This document shows positions 478 to 34,980 of a stretch of DNA of 64,000 nucleotides, one piece after another (within the stretch, counting starts at the first letter, position 1; each line of letters opens with the position of its first letter). Below the pieces are notes generated by a model that saw only the letters and a program-made list of their open reading frames with translations, was not told where the DNA came from and made no database searches. Source of the stretch: Desmonostoc muscorum LEGE 12446 (GTDB lineage Bacteria; Cyanobacteriota; Cyanobacteriia; Cyanobacteriales; Nostocaceae); NCBI RefSeq assembly GCF_015207005.2, contig NZ_JADEXS020000001.1, positions 620,001 to 684,000 on the forward strand, in the 5' to 3' direction. A program made the translations under genes and the position numbers.

Positions 478-938
478 GAGCCTATTTACAGCAGATTGCA
501 GCTTGGTGAGGTACAGGTTATCGTAGGGGCGCACAGCTGTCATACGTATCAACTTAAGCCTGGCGAATAGAATTCGCGCGCCACTTGCTTCTCCCAAGGG
601 GAGACGCTGCGCGAACAAGTCGGCAGAGCCGACGGCAGTTGCTCATGGGGGAAACCCCCAGACGCTCGCGGACTCGCTAACGCTGTTGGCGTCTCCCCTT
701 GGGAGAAGACCGCACTGCCTCCCCAACGCAGTGGCTTGGCTACACAGGCTTTCGTCCGCCTACCTTGTCCTAACAGAAAATTAAGGGTTTTGAAACCTGC
801 GTAGGCAGGTAAAGTTTAGTGTAGACGCGGTTTCTAACCGCCCGTTTCGCGTTACTTGACACCAATGGCAAGATGCCCACCCCACAAGATTGGATAATTT
901 ATTTCTTGGTAATCCCTAACAATTTTCCACTCATAGGA
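478..938. repeat. Gene-free stretch with long inverted repeat of Nostoc-type interspersed elements
   Basis: No coding potential is visible. A perfect 19-nt inverted repeat (arms 589-607 and 689-707, core CTCCCAAGGGGAGACGC) encloses about 80 nt. The interior holds further palindromic pieces, including GGGGGAAACCCCC, and the motif GACGCTCGCGGACTCGCTA. A diverged reverse-strand copy of that motif lies near 46180-46240. These are interspersed repeats typical of filamentous cyanobacteria, and the left and right arms look like two facing copies. Confidence 0.6.
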
Positions 939-972
939 AAAGGCGATCCAGACTGAGACTGCGATCGCCTTT
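939..972 (-). terminator. Candidate terminator of phoX
   Basis: A 10-bp perfect stem (AAAGGCGATC pairing with GATCGCCTTT) encloses a 14-nt loop just beyond the phoX stop. Read on the minus strand it is followed by four T residues. One arm contains a HIP1 octamer, so the hairpin could be partly incidental. Confidence 0.4.
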
Positions 973-989
973 AATGTTTTGCTAATCCC

Positions 990-3332
990 TTAAATAAACG
1001 TGCTGCGAGAATTTTTCGGGCGGATACCAATTACAGATGGCCGGGGAACGCCTGTAGCTTGACCCTTACCACCATCAGCCTTGGAAATATTACTCGGCCA
1101 ACTACTACCACGAGGTAAACTCCGAGTTTGATTGAATGTACTACCATTCAAATCCAGTAATTCAATGCTGCGACTCAGAATCGTGCCATCATTAATTGGA
1201 CAATCTTCACCAGGATGTTGTACTGAAATAATCAGTGTATTCCCCACAAAACTTGGCCCTGTCATCTCACAACGCACTGGCCCATAGGCAAACGGTACCA
1301 CCTGTCCGGCATTTGCACCCCTGGTGGGGATAAAAAACAGCCAATTATTACCGAATACTCCTGTAAAATCAGAAACATTACCGCTAGCTGTGTGATCGAT
1401 TTTGGTTTGCTTACCTTCAGCACCCACATCAAAACCATTGTGAGTGCCAGTAGACATATCTGTGACTCCCCAAACATTTGCCCGATCGTCAAAAACTAAA
1501 TTATCGACGTTGGCAAAACCAGCACCATTCACAGAACCAGCTTCACCACCTTGGACAAATCTCTGCCATTTAAAGGTTAAACCCGTACCATCAGCGCTAT
1601 CTTCAATAATCTTGTACAGTCCTCCTGATTGCTGCGTCCCGTTAGCATCTGTACTTAACTTGGCAACTTGAAAAATTCGGGAATCAGGATAACCATCGCT
1701 ACCTGGGGCACCATCAGTATAGGCGATGAAAACTTCTTTGGTAGTTGGATGCACTTCTAAATCTTCTGGACGCGCTGTGGGAGTTCCCCCGACTAAGTTT
1801 GCAGCTAAAAAGGCGTCAGTGAGTACGGCACCTTGGCTAGAGTAGAAGTCAGATAGCTTTTTATTTTGATAATCAGGTAGTGCTTTGGCTTCATTAGTGC
1901 GATCGCATTTAAAGGTACCACCATCTTTGGTTTCACCTGCTATGCCATCACGTCTCGGTAGTGGTAAAAGACCTTCTTTTTGTGCTTTCTGCAACGCAGC
2001 AAATTCTACAGAAGATAGAACTGTCGGCGCAATTGGATTGGTAGCAGTACTTAAAAGTAACGGTATCCACTTACCTGTACCGTCTGGATTGTAGCGGGCA
2101 ACATATAAAGTTCCATTTTCCCACAACTTACTGTTGCTTTTACTCGTTGGCGACGAGATGGTACTAGCACTGACAAATTTCCAAGTGTGTCCCCCACGTC
2201 TGTCATCACCTAAGTAAGCAACCAATTTCTTGCCTTTTTCAGCACGCACAGCAACATTTTCATGACGGAAACGACCCAAGGAAGTATGTTTGCGGGGGCG
2301 AAATTTTGGATTCGTGGGATCAATTTCTACAATCCAGCCGTATTTTTCGCCAACTAATCCGAAAGTCTTACCAATAGTTTTATCTGTGTAACTTGCCTGA
2401 GTCCCATTAGCTTTGACTGCTTCGGTAACGCTGTTTTGGAAGTTTTCTTCCCCGGATAAAATTGTTCCCCAAGGAGTTTTACCGCCAGAACAATTGAAGG
2501 CAGTACCAATAATTTTGTTACCTACTTCATCAGAGGAAAGATTAAAAACTTGGCTTGCAGCTGGGCCAGTCCCAATTAAATAATTTTGGTCACCTTTTTG
2601 GTGGTTGCGACTTCCCCAAGCCGTGACATTTTTGTAGTCATCATTGCGTTGGCTATTGATTCCCAATCCTGAAAGACCGTGAATCCGGCGATTTTTGTCA
2701 TCTTTGACCACAACAAAACGTTTACTCGCATTCTGGCGAGAGATGCGGACAATCGAGCCGCCTTGGTTATATAAAAATTCCCCTTCAACTTCAATATTTC
2801 TGGTGGAGGGTAAAGCCCAACCAATGACGCTTTCAAAGGCGTCAGGTAGTCCTTTGACATCAGAGGAATCTTCCACTACTAAAGTAGAAAATGGAAAACT
2901 AATGTATTCATGATTGACCCATAAATACCCTACATGATTAGTTTTTCCAACGGGAATAAAGCCAGTGAAATCGTTGTTGTAGCCGAAATAATCATCTTTG
3001 TTAGGAAAAACGCGATCGCCCCAACTGACAATTACATAACGTTCGTACTCTGGCGGCACTACCACATCATCAAGAACGTTGTAGCTAGTTAACTTAACAT
3101 CCGCAGATGCATTAACTACATCTCCTTCACCAATTTTTGTTGGCAAGAAATTTTTCTGCTGTTGATAAATTGGTAGAGGATGTGGTAGGCGTACAGGTGT
3201 AAAGCCCAGTGGTGCGGTTTTTGCTTCTGCACTGTTGGCAACACCGTTTAGGAGTTTGTCTCCCAAAACAACAGCACCAGCACTGCCAGCAAAAAATATT
3301 AAAATTTGTCTGCGACTCAATTTAGACATCAA
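990..3332 (-). CDS. phoX: PhoX-family alkaline phosphatase, Tat-exported
   Basis: This 780-residue protein belongs to the PhoX/DUF839 family, Ca/Fe-dependent phosphomonoesterases that release phosphate from organic esters outside the cytoplasm. The N-terminus has a twin-arginine signal (SRRQILIF at about residues 6-13), a hydrophobic stretch and an Ala-rich cleavage region. The body shows family segments such as WVNHEYISFPF, TPWGTILSGEENFQN, GRFRHENVAV, YLGDDRRGGHTWKF and RPEDLEVHP. The length fits large cyanobacterial PhoX proteins. A Pho-box-like element lies upstream at 3595-3613. The gene stands alone and points away from the glycosyltransferase at 3707. Family assignment is confident; enzymatic activity is inferred. 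Confidence 0.92.
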   Translation of the reverse strand: MMSKLSRRQILIFFAGSAGAVVLGDKLLNGVANSAEAKTAPLGFTPVRLPHPLPIYQQQKNFLPTKIGEGDVVNASADVKLTSYNVLDDVVVPPEYERYVIVSWGDRVFPNKDDYFGYNNDFTGFIPVGKTNHVGYLWVNHEYISFPFSTLVVEDSSDVKGLPDAFESVIGWALPSTRNIEVEGEFLYNQGGSIVRISRQNASKRFVVVKDDKNRRIHGLSGLGINSQRNDDYKNVTAWGSRNHQKGDQNYLIGTGPAASQVFNLSSDEVGNKIIGTAFNCSGGKTPWGTILSGEENFQNSVTEAVKANGTQASYTDKTIGKTFGLVGEKYGWIVEIDPTNPKFRPRKHTSLGRFRHENVAVRAEKGKKLVAYLGDDRRGGHTWKFVSASTISSPTSKSNSKLWENGTLYVARYNPDGTGKWIPLLLSTATNPIAPTVLSSVEFAALQKAQKEGLLPLPRRDGIAGETKDGGTFKCDRTNEAKALPDYQNKKLSDFYSSQGAVLTDAFLAANLVGGTPTARPEDLEVHPTTKEVFIAYTDGAPGSDGYPDSRIFQVAKLSTDANGTQQSGGLYKIIEDSADGTGLTFKWQRFVQGGEAGSVNGAGFANVDNLVFDDRANVWGVTDMSTGTHNGFDVGAEGKQTKIDHTASGNVSDFTGVFGNNWLFFIPTRGANAGQVVPFAYGPVRCEMTGPSFVGNTLIISVQHPGEDCPINDGTILSRSIELLDLNGSTFNQTRSLPRGSSWPSNISKADGGKGQATGVPRPSVIGIRPKNSRSTFI

Positions 3333-3594
3333 ACTTTCCTCTGGTGTGACAGGAAAAACTTAGTAGAAACAAATTCTACTGAATTAACATCAGAAACTCT
3401 TAAGTTTATGAAATTCGCTGTGTTTAAAATAATTAAGAATCTATCGTTTTTGATAAATTAAAGATTAATTGCCTCGTTTATAGCGATTCTCATTTGAATG
3501 AACCATAGGGTAGTGTAGCACATCTGTACTCTAGGCAATTGCAAACCGCTATATATGCAGAAATATCTATTAGTTTACTAACCTTAGTTTATTA

Positions 3595-3613
3595 AAGTTA
3601 AGCTTAGGTTATA
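3595..3613 (-). promoter_or_regulatory. Candidate Pho box upstream of phoX
   Basis: On the minus strand this reads TATAACCT-AAG-CTTAACTT, two 8-nt units separated by 3 nt. The known cyanobacterial Pho box consensus is PyTTAAPyPyT in tandem with 3-nt spacing. The second unit matches 8 of 8 positions and the first 7 of 8. It lies about 265 nt upstream of the phoX start. The region is AT-rich, which raises the chance of a coincidental match. Confidence 0.4.
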
Positions 3614-3706
3614 TATTAATTAACTAAGAATTATTAAACCTGGCGTTCTACGTAAGCAGAATCAGGTAAGGAACAGAGTCAGTGCCCCATCTGTCCTATC
3701 CTGGAG

Positions 3707-4675
3707 ATGGGTAAATGTGTTATGGGTGAGACTGTGTTTTTCAGCGTTGTGATACCGACTTATAATCGCCAACCGATTTTAGAAAAGTGCCTCCGTGCTT
3801 TGGAGGTGCAGGAGTTAAATCAGCCAAGTTCGGTGACTGGTTACGAGATTGTCTTGGTGGATGATGGTTCTACTGATGGCACATTGGAGTGGTTAGCAGC
3901 ACACAAAGAAGAGTTTCCCCATGTGCGATGTTTTCAGCAAGATCATGCTGGCCCTGCGGCGGCGCGGAATTTGGGGGTAGAACAGGCGCAGGGAGACACA
4001 ATTATCTTTATTGATAGTGATTTAGTAGTGCTGAAGAATTTCCTGCAAGCTCATGGTAGCGCACTAGTGCAGGGAAAAGAGAAATTGGGGAGCGATCGCT
4101 TTTTCACCTACGGCGCAGTTATCAATACTTGCAATTTCGACAATCCAACGGCTGAACCCTACAAAGTCACAGATTTTTCAGCAGCTTTTTTTGCTACGGG
4201 AAATGTAGCAATACCGAAACATTGGCTAGAAAAAGCCGGACTTTTTGATACCAGTTTCCAACTCTATGGCTGGGAAGATTTAGAACTAGGTGTGCGGCTG
4301 AAAAACTTAGGTTTGACACTAATTAAATGTCCAGAAGCCGTTGGCTATCACTGGCATCCACCGTTTAACTTAGAACAAATCAAAAGCTTAATTGACAAAG
4401 AAATCCAACGCGGACGAATGGGAGTTTTGTTTTATCAAAAACACCCCACATGGGAAGTGCGAATGATGATTCAAATGACTTGGCTACATCGCTTACTTTG
4501 GGGTGTTCTTTCACTCAATGGCGCACTAAATGAACGGACTATGGCTCCTTTTTTGCAATGGTTAATTAATTTAGGTAAACCACAATTAGCTTTAGAAATT
4601 GCCCGAATCTTTCTCAACTGGTACAACGTCAAGGGTGTTTATGAAGCCTATGCTGAAATGCAGCAGACATCCTGA
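3707..4675 (+). CDS. Family 2 glycosyltransferase
   Basis: This 322-residue GT2 enzyme has a GT-A fold. It opens with FFSVVIPTYNRQPILEKCL, followed by EIVLVDDGSTDGT (nucleotide-sugar binding), GPAAARNLGVEQA and the metal-binding-type motif FIDSD. GWEDLELGVRL is the acceptor-side ED motif. There is no clear transmembrane anchor. It probably transfers a sugar to a polysaccharide or lipid carrier; donor and acceptor are unknown. Start ATG 3707 is used, but ATG 3722 in the same frame is equally possible and lies closer to the conserved strand. No partner glycan genes are adjacent. Confidence 0.85.
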   Translation: MGKCVMGETVFFSVVIPTYNRQPILEKCLRALEVQELNQPSSVTGYEIVLVDDGSTDGTLEWLAAHKEEFPHVRCFQQDHAGPAAARNLGVEQAQGDTIIFIDSDLVVLKNFLQAHGSALVQGKEKLGSDRFFTYGAVINTCNFDNPTAEPYKVTDFSAAFFATGNVAIPKHWLEKAGLFDTSFQLYGWEDLELGVRLKNLGLTLIKCPEAVGYHWHPPFNLEQIKSLIDKEIQRGRMGVLFYQKHPTWEVRMMIQMTWLHRLLWGVLSLNGALNERTMAPFLQWLINLGKPQLALEIARIFLNWYNVKGVYEAYAEMQQTS

Positions 4676-28896: not shown

Positions 28897-29370
28897 ATTG
28901 CAATTAACTAAACTCCCTATTAGGGATTGAAACGCTGGGTACACGCTGGCAGAAGCGGATGATCTCAGATTGCAATTAACTAAACTCCCTATTAGGGATT
29001 GAAACTTGGCGGCATTGCCAATCCCAATAAACTTTCCGAAATTGCAATTAACTAAACTCCCTATTAGGGATTGAAACTAAGTTTTCATGGCGCGGATAGG
29101 CGCGGCGGGGCTAGGTAAGATTGCAATTAACTAAACTCCCTATTAGGGATTGAAACCGAGTTGCAGCAATATCAACCACGGGGAAAGTAAATTGCAATTA
29201 ACTAAACTCCCTATTAGGGATTGAAACTTTTAATATGAAAGTGTCGAACCGTTAGACAGGAATTGCAATTAACTAAACTCCCTATTAGGGATTGAAACAG
29301 GTATGATGGCAGGAACCGAGGAAGGCAAAAAAGATTGCAATTAACTAAACTCCCTATTAGGGATTGAAAC
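28897..29370 (+). CRISPR. CRISPR array, leader-proximal part (7 repeats)
   Basis: Seven identical 37-nt repeats start at 28897, 28969, 29041, 29120, 29191, 29262 and 29334. Each begins ATTGCAATTAACTAAAC and ends TATTAGGGATTGAAAC. The six complete spacers are 35, 35, 42, 34, 34 and 35 nt. The seventh spacer begins at 29371 and is cut at 29393 by the transposon. Repeats show no decay even at the transposon side. No cas genes are in the window, so the effector type is unknown. Confidence 0.98.
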
Positions 29371-29388
29371 GCGAGTCTTGGCTTTTCA

Positions 29389-29393
29389 CGTAG
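29389..29393. repeat. Target-site duplication, left copy
   Basis: CGTAG directly precedes the left terminal TGT of the transposon. The identical pentamer directly follows its right terminal ACA at 32757-32761. Five bases is the duplication length of Tn7-like elements. Confidence 0.93.
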
Positions 29394-29951
29394 TGTCACT
29401 TTACCGACATGATGGCAGTAAAGTGGAAGCAGACGATGGCAGTAAATGCACCTCAAAGGTTGATTACTTCGTGATGTAGAAAATGCGCTGGCAGAAAATC
29501 CATGAAAGAGTGGAAGCAGACGATGGCAGTAAGTATAAAAATGGAAGCACAATCGTGGCAGTAAGTATGTGCCACCAGTAAAAATCAAGAAAACCCTTAT
29601 GTATCAACGGTTGTTAGGTTTACTGTATAAAAGCATTTACCCTACTTTAGGAGTGAGAATGTGAATATGGAAGTAGAAAATGCCGATGACATCAGTAGCA
29701 ATGCGGTAAAAATAGCAGATAATATCATATACAAATACTGGGAAAAAACCAATTTTAATGATTGTTTATTCAGACTGTAGAAAGCAGGAAATAGCAGTCC
29801 AGGCAAAGGTTGTAAAGACTAATAGGATGGTTTTATGGAAGTAGGTAGTGTCAGTAAGTAGAAAGAATTAACGATTCTTAAATTTTGGAAGAAAAATATT
29901 GGCTTAAATATAAGTATGCAATTAAGGTAGAAATTGCATACCGAGGTAGCA
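29394..29951. repeat. Left end of the transposon with TnsB-type binding sites
   Basis: Sites of the form TGGAAGCA-n5/6-TGGCAGTAA follow one another: the terminal repeat 29394-29421, then 29423-29445, 29510-29534 and 29541-29566. More degenerate sites lie at about 29474-29497 and 29835-29859 (TGGAAGTAGGTAGTGTCAGT). All have the same orientation. Beyond the sites the region is AT-rich. A tiny frame from ATG 29667 (37 codons) is the only candidate gene and I cannot support it. Confidence 0.75.
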
Positions 29952-30777
29952 ATGTTGACAGAAGGTGAGTTTAGCTCATGGTCTGCATCACTCTCATTGT
30001 CATCACAGCAGTATGGAATGATTCAAAGTATACGGAGTTCTCCACCTTCCAGACGAGTCAGGGGAAGGGTTGGGAATGTTGTCGGGCGATATCCCAGTAA
30101 AAAAATGGGAGTGATAATTCAGTTTGAGAGCCACCGGAACGAATTGGCACGAATATATGAAATGGAATATGACCCAGAGGTTTTAGAATATTACGACCAA
30201 CCACCAAAAATCAAATTGCAATACTGCTGTTTAAATGGAAGACAAATAGGAGTATTACATACACCAGACTTTTTTGTAATTAGACGAGATCAGGCAGGTT
30301 GGTCAGAATGTAAAACAGCAGATGAACTGGAAAAATTAGCATCAAAAATGCCAAATCGTTACCAGTCAGATAGTAACGGCAATTGGCGATGTCCCCCAGG
30401 AGAAGAGTTTGCCAAAAATTGGGGATTATATTATCAAGTTTGCTCCGACCAAGAAATTAATTGGAGGAAACAGAGAAATCTCTATTTTTTAGAAGATTAT
30501 TTATCGGATAAATTAGAAGTTCCCACACAAGAGATAGTTGAAACAATCAAAATAATCTCCGCTAGTCCAGGAATAAAATTATCAGAGTTAATTGCAGCAG
30601 GAATCAATGCAGATTACATATATAAATTGATAGCAGACCAAAGGATATATGTGGACTTAGAATCATCCGCGCTATGCTCAGAAGCAGAAAGAGTGAGTTT
30701 TAAAATTCCCTATAAAACCACCAGAGACCAGAAAAATTATTCCCGAAGAAATTCAACCATATGAGGAGTTTTGGTAA
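29952..30777 (+). pseudogene. tnsA: TnsA(B) relic: endonuclease half kept, transposase core deleted
   Basis: The open frame runs to 30764. Counting from TTG 29934, its residues include TnsA nuclease motifs: IIQFESHRNE, HTPDFFV (D112) and GWSECKT (E125, K127). A winged-helix-like tail follows (ISASPGIKLSELIAAGINADY). ATG 29952 is the better start. At about 30690-30720 the similarity jumps. In the +1 frame the DNA reads KPPETRKIIPEEIQPYEEFW then TAA at 30775-30777, a plausible TnsB C-terminus coupled to the tnsC ATG by TAATG. The whole DDE integrase region is missing, so an ancestral fused TnsAB lost its middle. Confidence 0.8.
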
Positions 30778-31438
30778 TGCATTCTCCCGCAGGCTTATCC
30801 CAAGAGTTATTAACAGCATCTGATGCGGATAAAATAAATTATTTTACTAACTTTACAGTAGTACATCGGCTTTTAAAGCAAGCTTATGAAGAATTGTTAG
30901 ATGCGGTGAACAATCCAGGGGGTGCATCATTAATTTTCTTGTTTGGTCCTACAGGTGTGGGAAAAACAACCCTCTTATCTCAAGTAATGAAAATCATCTT
31001 TGAACAAAACCAAGGTTTAATGATGCAAGATTTAGCATATCTTCCCATTGCGGGAGTAGAAGCGCGTTCTCCAGACAGCGGTTCTTTTGATTGGAAAGAT
31101 TACTACAAAAGCGTTTTAATTGCTTTAAGAGAACCATTTGCTGATTATAAGGTTAGAGTATCTAGTAGTCGGGTTTATGCTAGTGGTAGCGAACAAAAAA
31201 CAGTAAAAGTTAAGCCTAACCTCGGTGATTTACGAGCTGATGTAGAGTATATATTTAGACAGAGACAGTTAAAAATTTTTCTAGTTGATGAAGCGCAACG
31301 TTTTGCCAAAATAGCTTAAATGAGGAAGTAGCTGACAACCATTCATCGGCAGATTCGGCAACGAAAATCAAACGCCAAAAACACTATCCTGGCGAACGAA
31401 ATCCCAAAAGAGATATTGTTGGAGGTGGAAATGCTTGA
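30777..31438 (+). pseudogene. tnsC: TnsC relic: truncated AAA+ ATPase
   Basis: From ATG 30777 the protein has the TnsC N-terminus, Walker A (FLFGPTGVGKTT) and Walker B (KIFLVDEAQRF), then stops at 31319 just after FAKIA. In the neighbouring frame from 31319 the DNA reads NEEVADNHSSADSATK and RNPKRDIVGGGNA to TGA 31436-31438. It overlaps the tniQ start, as intact tnsC-tniQ pairs do. The sensor and C-terminal half are therefore deleted with a frame change. The 180-residue product could bind but probably not properly hydrolyse ATP. Confidence 0.82.
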
Positions 31439-32642
31439 TAATCAATTGAACTTAAAACCCCCTTGGTATACTCAACAAATAGATGTACCACAACGTAGTC
31501 ATTTATATCCTTTAAAACCACTATTATTAGGAACAGCGTTTACTGAAAGTTTGACCAGCTACATTACACGTTTAGCTGCAACTCACCAAATTCCCACAGG
31601 AATTTTACTGGCTCAGGAATTAGCCCCTAAAATTAATCGCTATAAAGGACCAAATCCAGATAGTTTATCACAGATATTTTTCCACATCTTTTTTAACCAA
31701 ACAGGTGCATGGAATGGAACTGGAACTATGGCACTTGAGCCTTTATTAGTTTTACAAAAGCTAACTCAACAGCCTATCTTAAAATATTTAACATTAATAC
31801 CTTGGTCAAAAGTTGTACCAACTAGAAATCTCTTGCGTAAATATAAGGCTTGGTGTCCGTTATGTTATTCGGAATGGAGCAACAATGGTCTTCCACTTTA
31901 CGAGCCATTAATTTGGTCTATTTCAACAGTTAAAATTTGTTCTAGACATCAGTATCCTTTAATGAATTATTGTCCCAACTGTGGTCAAAATGTTTACTTG
32001 TTAGCTTGGAATACTAAAAATGGATTTTGCTGTAGATGTCATTATTGGTTGGGTACAGCTTGTTCAATGCTAGAATCAAAATTCTATCATACCGAAGAAG
32101 GAGAATGGCACAATTTTGTTGCCCAACAAGTTGGAGAACTAATTGCTCAAACACCATATTTAATTGAACCACCAAATCGAGAATCAGTCGCTCTAGCTAT
32201 AAATAAGTGTATTGATGTTGTGACTCAGGGTAATGCTAAAGCTTTTGCCGAACAAATGCATTTAAGTCTTACTGTTCCTAGAGATTGGCGTGTTGGCAAT
32301 GCATTGCCTCAACTTAATAAACTATTACGTGTATGCTACCGATTATCAATTTCTCTAATTGATGTTTATCTCGGCCGCCTTAATCTTGATAGCTCTATAG
32401 TTTTAAAGGATTTACCATTATCCGAACAATACTCTCAAACTAATCGCCCATTTGATCTAAATAAAGTGCGTTCCTTTTTAGAACTACATCAAGAATCTTT
32501 TCCACCCCAATCGCTCAAACACCTTGCATTCCAAATTGGTTATGACTCAGCTGATTTGTCCCGACACTTACCCGATTTGTGTCGTCGAATATCTGCACGT
32601 TATAAATTACACACCAAATCTTGTTTAAAACCCCGTGTATAA
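31431..32642 (+). CDS. tniQ: TniQ/TnsD-family target-selection protein
   Basis: The 403-residue protein from ATG 31431 has a GGAGGTGG ribosome-binding site just upstream (the frame opens at TTG 31416). The N-terminal TniQ domain is clear: LGTAFTESLTSYITRLAATHQIPTG. Zinc-binding cysteines and histidine follow in AWCPLCYSEW, CSRHQYPLMNYCPNCG and GFCCRCHYWLG. A C-terminal helical region ends with a TnsD-like fold (LKHLAFQIGYDSADLSRHL). TniQ links a target-recognition module to TnsC; in CRISPR-associated transposons it binds Cascade or the tracrRNA complex. It is undamaged, unlike its neighbours. Confidence 0.9.
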   Translation: MLDNQLNLKPPWYTQQIDVPQRSHLYPLKPLLLGTAFTESLTSYITRLAATHQIPTGILLAQELAPKINRYKGPNPDSLSQIFFHIFFNQTGAWNGTGTMALEPLLVLQKLTQQPILKYLTLIPWSKVVPTRNLLRKYKAWCPLCYSEWSNNGLPLYEPLIWSISTVKICSRHQYPLMNYCPNCGQNVYLLAWNTKNGFCCRCHYWLGTACSMLESKFYHTEEGEWHNFVAQQVGELIAQTPYLIEPPNRESVALAINKCIDVVTQGNAKAFAEQMHLSLTVPRDWRVGNALPQLNKLLRVCYRLSISLIDVYLGRLNLDSSIVLKDLPLSEQYSQTNRPFDLNKVRSFLELHQESFPPQSLKHLAFQIGYDSADLSRHLPDLCRRISARYKLHTKSCLKPRV

Positions 32643-32681
32643 TATTTATGATCTTCCGTGCCTTTATACTTTCTTTCCTTT

Positions 32682-32756
32682 GTGGAAGCACTTCATGGCA
32701 GTGCCCTTGTGGAAGCACTTCGTGGCAGTTACTGCCATCAAGTGGTTCAAGTAACA
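32682..32756. repeat. Right end of the transposon with TnsB-type sites
   Basis: Two sites on the plus strand (32682-32703 and 32709-32731, both GTGGAAGCACTTC-R-TGGCAGT) precede the terminal inverted repeat, whose site lies on the minus strand (32729-32756). The last two face each other and form the palindrome TGGCAGTTACTGCCA. The end is about 75 bp and shorter than the left end. Confidence 0.78.
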
Positions 32757-32761
32757 CGTAG
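32757..32761. repeat. Target-site duplication, right copy
   Basis: CGTAG, identical to 29389-29393, directly outside the right terminal repeat. Confidence 0.93.
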
Positions 32762-32951
32762 TTCTTCCAGCAATTGCAATTAACTAAACTCCCTATTAGG
32801 GATTGAAACATTTACGGCAACGCCGCCGGAACCCGACGTATAACATTGCAATTAACTAAACTCCCTATTAGGGATTGAAACCAAAAAGCGGAGAGTAAGC
32901 ATTGCACCCATTGGATTGCAATTAACTAAACTCCCTATTAGGGATTGAAAC
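32762..32951 (+). CRISPR. CRISPR array, leader-distal part (3 repeats)
   Basis: The last 11 nt of the interrupted spacer (32762-32772) are followed by three repeats at 32773, 32845 and 32915, each identical over 37 nt to the seven upstream of the transposon. The spacers between them are 35 and 33 nt. It is the continuation of the same array, now separated from the leader by 3.4 kb. Confidence 0.97.
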
Positions 32952-32971: not shown

Positions 32972-33682
32972 TTATGAAGAACTACAAAAATTATTAAGAT
33001 AGTTATAAAGTTCACGAAATAAAGGGCATTTTCGTTGAACTTCAGATAGATTGAGATACGCTAATAGCTCAGGTGTATGCAATCCTTTAGAAAAGCGCGT
33101 TGAACTGCTATCAAATTCATCTAAAACACTTGAATCGATTAGTGCTTGTGATAGTTTTTGTTGACAACAATCTCTTTCAATATCGTACTCACTAAAGGAT
33201 TCTGGATTATCAAAAGGAATATTGATTTGCGTACTCAGCCACCAACGCATACGCTGATGTCTACCTCTAAAGTCGGGATGTTGAGCTACTGAGTTATTCC
33301 AATCTGCGATAATCCAAGCTTCGAGTTCGGGAGCAGCAAACCCAATAAATATTGGAATATCAGAATATGCTGATATCGCTGACAATATTCTTTCTCTTTC
33401 CTGTATCGGATCGCGGCAATCTAAATCATCAAAAACTAAAATTAAATCACATACATTCGGTTCATATTGTAAAGCAATAGATAGCTCTCGCTTGATTTGC
33501 TCAATTAAACTCTGACCTGTCCTTCCATAACTATTTATCTTATTAGGTTTGGGGCCAGGTTTCTGATTAATTGGTGTTTTTCGTTTAAATGAACATCCAG
33601 GAAAGTTTTTTTCTAAAAAAGGAATTAGTCCTCTAACTTCAGCTTCCCCACCCCCAGCGAAAACCCATACTACCACGGCCAT
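32972..33682 (-). CDS. TOPRIM-like DUF4276-type protein
   Basis: A 236-residue protein with a TOPRIM-like layout. WVFAGGGEAEVRG at the start supplies the acidic motif 1, LILVFDDLDCRD is the DxD motif, and APELEAWIIADW follows, a combination I associate with DUF4276. TOPRIM domains of this kind act as metal-dependent nucleases in OLD-like and PARIS-like systems. It overlaps the ATPase gene by 13 nt, so the two are translated together. Its stop lies only 20 nt from the last CRISPR repeat. A defence role is inference. Confidence 0.7.
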   Translation of the reverse strand: MAVVVWVFAGGGEAEVRGLIPFLEKNFPGCSFKRKTPINQKPGPKPNKINSYGRTGQSLIEQIKRELSIALQYEPNVCDLILVFDDLDCRDPIQERERILSAISAYSDIPIFIGFAAPELEAWIIADWNNSVAQHPDFRGRHQRMRWWLSTQINIPFDNPESFSEYDIERDCCQQKLSQALIDSSVLDEFDSSSTRFSKGLHTPELLAYLNLSEVQRKCPLFRELYNYLNNFCSSS

Positions 33683-34980
33683 CCTCCAATACTGGGATCG
33701 CCAACACGGTATAAATCACCTAGTTCCCATCCTTGTTCTAGCTTGTCATTAAGCATTTCTTTGGAGAGTGTTTTGATAGAAGAATGCGTTTTATCTTCTG
33801 AATAAAAACAAAAAACATTTTCTAAACAATCTGTGAAATGGTCTAAAAGATCGGGGCTGTGTGTAGTGATAATTACTTGGGTTTTGCCAGCAGCTTTTTT
33901 AATCCACTCTGCTAAAATTGGCATCCATGATACGTGCAATCCTAATTCTGGTTCATCAATTACTAGTAATGAAGGAAGAACTGGTGAATGTAATATAGTA
34001 GCCCAACAAAGCATCCGCACAGTTCCATCTGACATTTCATTGAGATAAAAGGCTTCTTTGATGTCATGAAAATACCACTCTAATGTCAAAGACAAACGAC
34101 CAGAACGGATAGGTCTAAGACGACGAGTCTTTGGTAAGATAGCCTTCATTGCTTGGTTAATACTCTCCTCAAAATCTATATATTGCAGAATTAAATTATC
34201 CAAAACTAGAGGTAAATTATCTCCTGAAGGCGATAAATAAATATCACTTCCTCCTATTTTAGGCTCTGCCATTCTAATAAGATTTAAATCCATATTATTG
34301 GCATTATAAAACTGCCATTTTGAAACTAATTCAATTAAATCTCTTCTAATTTTATAAACAGGTGTATTTTCAGGAGGATATTGGCTATCTTCAAGCAATC
34401 TAGGTATAGCAGTAAGACCTAAAAAATTACTTGGTATATTATCTAAACCTTCAAAATGAGTTTTTGGCTGACCTGGTGCATCATAAACTGATACAGCCCC
34501 TTTGCCAAATTCTCTGTCATGAAACTTATAATAATAAAAGGGAAATGAAGTTGAGTCCTGTAAATTTTCCCCACTATATAAATATTCTTCTGCGATACTA
34601 ACACCTCTTGCCTGATCTCTATTAACAAAAATTTTTAAATCAAGTATGCTGCTATCTCTTGTAGGTGTATCAATTTGTGAATTGTGAGAAAAACTAAAAC
34701 AGTATGCAATTCTTACTCTAGCAGGACTTTCTACACTAACATCTAAAATTCTATTACCACCAATTTGGGTAATTGCATCTTCAAAACTACTGACGCTTCG
34801 ACTTTCATCAGGAATTTTAGTTAGACTATCTTTTAAAAATTTTAAGCAGCTGATGAAATTGCTTTTACCTGAACCATTTGAACCTATAAAAATATTTAGA
34901 TTTTTGAGTATAACTATCTGATTTAAAGATAAATTTTTATAATTGTTAGTAACAAGAAAGCGAAGAAGGGGTTGATTCAT
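33670..34980 (-). CDS. AAA/ABC-type ATPase (AAA_21-like)
   Basis: The 436-residue ATPase has Walker A IFIGSNGSGKSNF, ABC-like signature LNEMSDGTVRML, Walker B LLVIDEPELGLH and switch histidine VIITTHSPDLLDHF. All are intact. This is the RecF/SMC-like ATPase type found in OLD, Septu and PARIS-style defence modules. It is upstream of and overlaps the TOPRIM-like gene. Together they look like a sensor ATPase plus effector nuclease pair. Confidence 0.85.
   Translation of the reverse strand: MNQPLLRFLVTNNYKNLSLNQIVILKNLNIFIGSNGSGKSNFISCLKFLKDSLTKIPDESRSVSSFEDAITQIGGNRILDVSVESPARVRIAYCFSFSHNSQIDTPTRDSSILDLKIFVNRDQARGVSIAEEYLYSGENLQDSTSFPFYYYKFHDREFGKGAVSVYDAPGQPKTHFEGLDNIPSNFLGLTAIPRLLEDSQYPPENTPVYKIRRDLIELVSKWQFYNANNMDLNLIRMAEPKIGGSDIYLSPSGDNLPLVLDNLILQYIDFEESINQAMKAILPKTRRLRPIRSGRLSLTLEWYFHDIKEAFYLNEMSDGTVRMLCWATILHSPVLPSLLVIDEPELGLHVSWMPILAEWIKKAAGKTQVIITTHSPDLLDHFTDCLENVFCFYSEDKTHSSIKTLSKEMLNDKLEQGWELGDLYRVGDPSIGGWPW

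Follow-up and report, generated by a model that had tools for sequence, protein, structure and literature searches.

A CRISPR array split by a Tn7-like element

The analysed window, a stretch of 64,000 nucleotides of Desmonostoc muscorum LEGE 12446 (C1:620001-684000 of the 9.64 Mb source genome, G000), contains a CRISPR (clustered regularly interspaced short palindromic repeats) array that is interrupted by a 3,363-bp Tn7-like element. The array is identified by its ten identical 37-nt repeats, which match the Rfam family RF01318 CRISPR-DR5 with 48.3 bits, and by its unique spacers. A sequence-only reading of this DNA had proposed a single Tn7-like insertion into a pre-existing array, which our analysis upholds: repeat and junction analysis confirmed the division of the repeats into seven on the left and three on the right, the size of the element, the CGTAG on both of its flanks, and the two half-spacers that rejoin to 34 nt (23 nt + 11 nt). 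Two details of that reading stood only in part. The spacer length of 33-35 nt, given as normal, applies to seven of the eight intact spacers, the eighth being 42 nt long; and the 28-bp terminal inverted repeats are present but imperfect, with 83% complementarity over ~28 bp. The element further contains four 24-nt sub-terminal repeats, two of them identical and the other two 71% like these, so that together with the TGT...ACA ends and the 5-bp target duplication it has the structure of a Tn7-like transposon. From what is known of Tn7 ends, we take the identical pair, at the left end, to be TnsB binding sites.

The TniQ protein of the element carries a PF06527 domain with zinc-finger cysteines, and its residues 6-399 of 403 align with the solved TnsD 8v32_J (E 8e-80). 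No TnsB domain was found by domain searches among the genes of the window element, which is therefore not expected to move on its own, a point that the sequence-only reading had missed. Under a working definition of Tn7-like elements by TnsB and TnsC with TnsA and/or TniQ (PMC11406308), the window copy falls outside the definition and its intact relative from Calothrix sp. 336/3 falls within it. This relative, of which three identical intact copies are present, measures 5,731 bp and encodes a TnsAB of 894 aa (TnsA, rve and Mu-transpos_C), a TnsC of 398 aa and a TniQ of 408 aa. Compared with it, the window copy shows two internal deletions (window 1273/1342 corresponding to Calothrix 1274/3183, and 1919/1967 to 3761/4332), as a result of which TnsB and most of TnsC are gone; it is a predicted non-autonomous derivative with an intact TniQ. 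Searches of the window copy and of the intact Calothrix copies turned up tns/tni genes alone, without the cas effector genes and internal CRISPR array of a CRISPR-associated transposon (CAST), and neither is classed as one.

Other deletions were found among the relatives. In the 2,546-bp copy of genome G520 one deletion, unlike those of the window copy, spans Calothrix 810 to 3997. The two plasmid copies of Allocoleopsis franciscana PCC 7113 (L087/L088; 5,108 bp) are missing 342 bp at the tnsAB/tnsC border relative to the chromosomal copy (5,450 bp), which itself has frame breaks in tnsAB and tnsC; thus no PCC 7113 copy is intact. Calothrix 336/3 has intact genes, and continuous alignment indicates the same for Coleofasciculus, G152 and LEGE 05292. 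The three deletion types (window, L170 of G520, L087/L088) lie in or across tnsAB and tnsC; in all of them tniQ is intact and both ends are retained, a hint that there is an advantage in keeping tniQ in cis. No clear helper transposase was found in the source genome, where the relatives on contig 2 (L055, L056) are fragmentary and a CAST-like element (L054) has, by eye, different ends.

Table 1. Features of the interrupted array and of the inserted element, as positions in the window.
Feature	Position	Strand	Evidence or remark
Left array part, seven 37-nt repeats	28897..29370	+	Rfam RF01318 CRISPR-DR5
Left piece of split spacer, 23 nt including target duplication	29371..29393	+	
Left 5-bp target-site duplication CGTAG	29389..29393		
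Non-autonomous Tn7-like element, 3,363 bp, TGT...ACA	29394..32756	+	Four identical copies; internal-deletion derivative of 5,731-bp parent type
Left terminal inverted repeat, imperfect	29394..29421	+	Repeat pair I3
Two identical 24-nt sub-terminal repeats (29422-29445, 29509-29532), presumed TnsB sites	29422..29532	+	Repeat family D2
tnsA part of tnsAB fusion gene, TnsB part deleted	29934..30764	+	PF08722 E 1.2e-8; matches residues 1-263 of intact 894-aa TnsAB
Truncated tnsC/tniB with Walker A and B, C-terminal half lost	30771..31319	+	PF13401 E 1.4e-8; Walker motifs by eye
Intact tniQ, 403 aa, proposed target selector reading the CRISPR repeat	31431..32642	+	PF06527 E 7.7e-16; match to TnsD 8v32_J
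Two right-end sub-terminal repeats, 71% like left pair	32681..32731	+	Repeat family D2
Right terminal inverted repeat, tniQ-proximal, facing proposed attachment repeat	32729..32756	-	Repeat pair I3
Right 5-bp target-site duplication CGTAG	32757..32761		
Right piece of split spacer, 11 nt	32762..32772	+	
Proposed attachment site, the downstream repeat	32773..32809	+	Anchor motif GGATTGAAAC at 32800-32809, ends 53 bp from element end
Right array part, three repeats	32773..32951	+	Rfam CRISPR-DR5

Insertions of the clade and their distance to the repeat

The source genome contains four 100%-identical full copies of the element, including the one in the window, and one truncated copy. All five are located in CRISPR arrays and share one orientation; they occupy five arrays with four repeat types, and because the other copies also sit in arrays, the insertion in the window is not a matter of chance. 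Target duplications are clear for three copies (CGTAG, TCTCT and AGCCC), absent from one, and one copy has lost its right half. This fifth copy (L053 3409-4400) is cut inside tnsC and is followed by sequence that resembles, by eye, another transposase gene; on its right side no other array was seen. In the source genome the repeat-end pattern GGGATKGAAAC is present 85 times, versus 12 occurrences of a control pattern, and 63 of the 85 form seven arrays (hand count of the listing, which covers only arrays ending in this pattern), together a few kb of the 9.64 Mb; five of these arrays hold a copy.

Members of the same clade, hereafter the array clade, were found in eight genomes: the source, Richelia sp. 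SL_2_1, G520, Calothrix sp. 336/3, Iningainema tapete, Allocoleopsis franciscana PCC 7113, UBA8803 and Coleofasciculus sp. LEGE 07092. They were collected by TniQ searches with cut-offs in overlapping sets of 388, 217, 388 and 20 genomes and by one scan of genome contigs, and the census is incomplete; in the class-level search at a cut-off of 1e-125 the source genome alone passed (1/388). Viral contigs contained no relatives. Seventeen insertions were counted (five in the source genome, three each in Calothrix 336/3 and PCC 7113, two in UBA8803, and one each in Richelia, Iningainema, G520 and Coleofasciculus), and 14 of them lie in arrays. The sequence-only reading had seen the landing in a spacer as a one-off; arrays are instead the target, as this proportion and the constant distance and orientation described below indicate. 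Related TniQ/TnsD loci gave 0/19 with an array flanking the element, the comparators being 19 fetched loci that were screened by one rule and include near-duplicates (L177-L179 are three copies of one element). At two of them (L096 and L100) a short tandem-repeat match lies ~6 kb away from the element; neither was taken for a CRISPR array.

The right junction is available for 15 insertions (12 in arrays) and both junctions for 14. The right junction of one Calothrix copy assumes a circular chromosome record (L174 joined to L182). Of the three PCC 7113 copies, two occupy arrays of a plasmid, and one has type III-B genes next to it. The Richelia contig has different repeats to the left and right of the element and therefore probably merges two copies. 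Of the second UBA8803 insertion, also in an array, 73 bp of the left end remain (L158, contig 480), and this remnant is joined to what appears by eye to be the end of another Tn7-like element (TTTAAGTCACA), while a 48-bp end-like stretch of the same genome without the terminal TGTCA (L164) was excluded from the count.

The right offset runs from the base that follows ...ACA through the final base of the downstream repeat, with values entered from the junction analysis and from hand counts (for Richelia the best script window ended at 52 and the repeat ends at 53). The fifth source-genome copy and the UBA8803 remnant, both with left ends only, and the three non-array copies were omitted. The offsets are 53, 52, 53 and 52 in the source genome, 53 in Richelia, 52 in G520, 51 and 52 in Calothrix 336/3, 50 in Iningainema, 49 and 50 in PCC 7113, and 48 in UBA8803 (n=12, range 48-53, standard deviation 1.7), and in 12/12 cases the tniQ-proximal end points toward the repeat. 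Assuming uniform positions, the chance that all 12 fall in one 6-nt window of a 72-nt unit is ~1.6e-11. The left-side distance varies from 12 to 31 (n=13, standard deviation 5.0), and since the right offset is fixed and the left distance is variable, the anchor is the downstream repeat. Anchoring at the upstream repeat (22-27 nt in the source genome) was our first reading and was dropped because the downstream distance is tighter. Repeats that are otherwise different share their end alone, in the forms GGATTGAAAC, GGATGGAAAC, GAATGGAAAC and close variants. Insertion at a fixed distance from a recognised DNA sequence is, as far as can be judged by sequence, the behaviour of a TnsD-type selector.

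Matching 5-bp duplications were found at eight of the 14 insertions with both junctions, with GAAGA, CCTTC and ATAAA outside the source genome. Outside arrays, two of the three insertions have a repeat-like site at the same offset, GAATGGAATC on the PCC 7113 chromosome and GGAAGGAAAC in Coleofasciculus, each with a background at that offset of 6e-4 as calculated from window DNA. No tRNA (transfer RNA) genes were detected at the three non-array loci in the stretch searched.

A second genome of the same species (G464) matches the window on both sides of the array, with 98.7% identity over 1,585 bp on the left and 98.6% over 3,707 bp on the right. There the locus is a single unbroken run of 45 repeats, almost all of which match the window repeats exactly, and it contains no element. 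Separate half-arrays without an element, which the sequence-only reading had named as one finding that would speak against its interpretation, were thus not seen in the one same-species genome examined. The uninterrupted array that it had suggested looking for was found as a locus; the two arrays have no spacer in common, so that G464 shows the locus as an unbroken array and not the same spacer unbroken. Directly beside the window array, on the minus strand (32972-34980), lie genes for an AAA ATPase (PF13304; PADLOC HEC-01A, E 7e-47) and a DUF4276 protein (HEC-01B, E 1e-6), which form a candidate two-gene defence system.

Proposed recognition of CRISPR-repeat DNA and its alternatives

We consider it very probable that this TnsAB-TnsC-TniQ clade homes to CRISPR-repeat DNA in the manner of TniQ/TnsD-type elements, with its single TniQ acting as TnsD; the evidence is computational throughout. 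Recognition of the repeat would be a direct protein-DNA contact, in which TniQ would bind double-stranded repeat DNA chiefly over its last ~10 bp, the DNA of the 5' handle of the CRISPR RNA (crRNA). The repeat-bound TniQ would recruit TnsC and then the transposase, and TnsAB would join the element ends to the target with a 5-bp duplication, ~45-50 bp upstream of the repeat end (from mid-duplication to repeat end) and with the tniQ end facing the repeat, a distance that places the insertion inside the preceding spacer. Deleted copies presumably used TnsAB and TnsC in trans, supplied by an intact relative that was not found in the source genome. With the midpoint of the duplication as origin, the footprint of Tn7 TnsD on attTn7 extends from +23 to +58 (PMC2918618); on this scale the downstream repeat of the window lies at +14 to +50 and the anchor motif at +41 to +50, overlapping the footprint. 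For a cyanobacterial I-B CAST, a TnsC-TnsD-attachment site complex with bent DNA has been described (PMC12585508), and the structures 8v32 and 9bw1 presumably belong to that work.

Several observations weigh against homing to the repeat or against the history proposed for it below. Six of the 14 insertions with both junctions lack a matching duplication (source-genome copy 4, G520, two in Calothrix 336/3, UBA8803, and Richelia with its chimeric-looking contig). The four array copies without a duplication but with a clean right flank retain the offset (52, 52, 51 and 48), and recombination between two copies within an array may account for the missing duplications. The left distance is as short as 12 nt in one UBA8803 case. 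The third Calothrix 336/3 copy (L173) has the same sequence as the two in arrays and lies outside arrays without a duplication and without a convincing site (3 mismatches, background 0.05). Three exact-match scans of viral contigs for protospacers of three joined spacers gave 0 hits. In the closest sister lineage (G152 and Phormidium LEGE 05292) 0/7 junctions lie in arrays, and the likeness between the repeat end and the T-arm of tRNA genes is weaker at two of eight tRNA sites (AGACTCGAAC, background 0.22).

It is very unlikely that the upstream repeat, or a hairpin or cruciform of the repeat, is recognised rather than the downstream repeat end. Every array insertion for which both sides are known has a repeat on either side, and a hairpin is present in many of the repeats; but the left distances are spread, the repeats of Iningainema and UBA8803 have by eye no hairpin directly beside the handle and yet give offsets of 50 and 48, the pseudo-sites of the non-array insertions lie on the right side, and tRNA-homing sisters also face their target with the tniQ end. 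An RNA-guided insertion, in which a CAST-like complex charged with host crRNAs takes array spacers as targets at a fixed distance from the matching spacer, appears quite improbable. Array spacers match host crRNAs by definition, and the source genome has a CAST-like element (TnsAB, TnsC, TnsD and a Cas6-like open reading frame (ORF), recognised by eye without a family search), but ~5.1 kb of the intact 5,731-bp Calothrix 336/3 element is filled by TnsAB, TnsC and TniQ, leaving no room for cas genes, the distance to the upstream spacer is more variable than that to the downstream repeat, and two non-array insertions carry the repeat-like motif at the same offset.

Near-random insertion, followed by survival of array copies alone because arrays are harmless, is very improbable: the non-coding nature of arrays, the Calothrix copy L173 and the scattered sites of G152/LEGE 05292 agree with it, but it is already contradicted by the 48-53 bp offset and single orientation in 12/12, arrays are a tiny share of the genome, and no further copy was found outside arrays in the source genome. 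Spread of one ancestral array insertion by recombination or gene conversion between arrays, suggested by the 100% identity among the source-genome copies and among the three Calothrix 336/3 copies and by the several insertions without duplications, can be dismissed almost entirely, since the distinct duplications of the source genome and of the other genomes, with their different flanking repeats and spacers, mark separate transpositions.

Sister lineages and known Tn7-like systems

In a tree of 26 rows (the window TniQ and ORFs of at least 200 aa from 21 chosen loci, matching the window TniQ over at least 250 residues), the array clade groups with the G152/LEGE 05292 lineage on a single branch (100/100), separate from the tRNA TnsDs; the row label 'Coleofasc_array' is a clade name and does not denote the insertion site. 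G152 has CAATGGAAAA at the offset (background 0.006). The element of Phormidium sp. LEGE 05292 (L092 / L107) is present in multiple copies with three right and three left junctions at scattered sites; its three right junctions showed no repeat-like motif at the offset, and this lineage may have relaxed specificity. In the next branch, 8 of the 12 loci searched for tRNA genes end beside tRNA-Val or tRNA-Ala with the tniQ/tnsD end facing the gene; no adjoining tRNA gene was found in this search at L102 and L177-L179. The latter (G409) are three TnsAB-type copies with a 554-aa TniQ frame, beside which neither a tRNA gene nor an array was found. The right flanks of the eight tRNA sisters contain the antisense T-arm on the same strand and at an offset near that of the array clade: GGATTCGAAC or GGATTTGAAC ending at 51-54 at six sites, and AGACTCGAAC ending at 52 at two.

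The source genome has one such sister (L054), whose TnsD is almost the same as the solved 8v32_J. This CAST-like element (L054 4902-11658; G000:C1, ~4.107-4.114 Mb) lies next to tRNA-Val and encodes a TnsAB of 898 aa, TnsC, TnsD and a Cas6-like ORF recognised by eye; decay of the element is suggested by a TniQ fragment that contains a stop.

We hold it reasonably probable, with less confidence than homing itself, that the ancestors of a Tn7-like family homed to tRNA genes and that the family came to use CRISPR-repeat DNA as its attachment site through the likeness between the antisense T-arm (GGATTCGAAC) and the repeat end (GGATTGAAAC), so that arrays of many types, both chromosomal and plasmid-borne, provide it with landing pads in many copies and are broken by its insertion. 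Array homing would then have arisen from T-arm homing, aided by this likeness; the midpoint root of the tree does not prove the direction.

Reviews and surveys name glmS, tRNA, parE, comM and resolvase sites as targets of Tn7-like elements (PMC10293859, PMC11406308, PMC8649781, PMC11656645, PMC12669027), and the partial texts searched make no mention of CRISPR repeats; the cyanobacterial survey of Hsieh and Peters was outside this scope and may mention such elements. Within this literature, CRISPR-array homing would be a new homing class for Tn7-like transposons. It offers a naturally occurring case of a changed target alongside a solved TnsD and leads one to expect a compact inserter that is guided by protein and has an anchor motif of ~10 bp. 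It is also a further way in which CRISPR memory can be disrupted in cyanobacteria: in filamentous species, bacterial immune memory appears to be the landing site of this small family.

Among described systems, the Tn5053 family (res-site hunters) and Tn5469 resemble the array clade in having a single TniQ and no second pathway; Tn5053 differs by targeting resolvase sites, and Tn5469 is described as probably without specificity (PMC11406308). The tRNA-homing TnsD elements (the cyanobacterial TnsAB-fusion branch with its type I-B2 / I-D CAST relatives and TnsD 8v32/9bw1) share with it the TnsAB fusion, TnsC, a TnsD/TniQ, the tniQ-proximal end toward the target, and an offset that is 51-54 bp to their antisense T-arm motif. 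They differ in their target, a tRNA gene instead of a CRISPR repeat, in their TnsD of 454-501 aa with a C-terminal part that the 403-aa array TniQ lacks, and in a second full TniQ at four of their eight loci. In canonical Tn7, TnsA and TnsB are separate proteins. Canonical Tn7 has TnsABC with a TnsD-type selector, a 5-bp duplication and a fixed distance, as in the array clade, and the TnsD footprint on attTn7 noted above (PMC2918618), but its target is the coding DNA of glmS. CASTs share the Tn7-like core and TniQ, but they carry CRISPR-Cas and use a guide RNA, whereas the array clade has no cas genes and finds in CRISPR DNA its target, so that the usual relation between CRISPR and transposon is reversed and the immune array is the target, not the guide.

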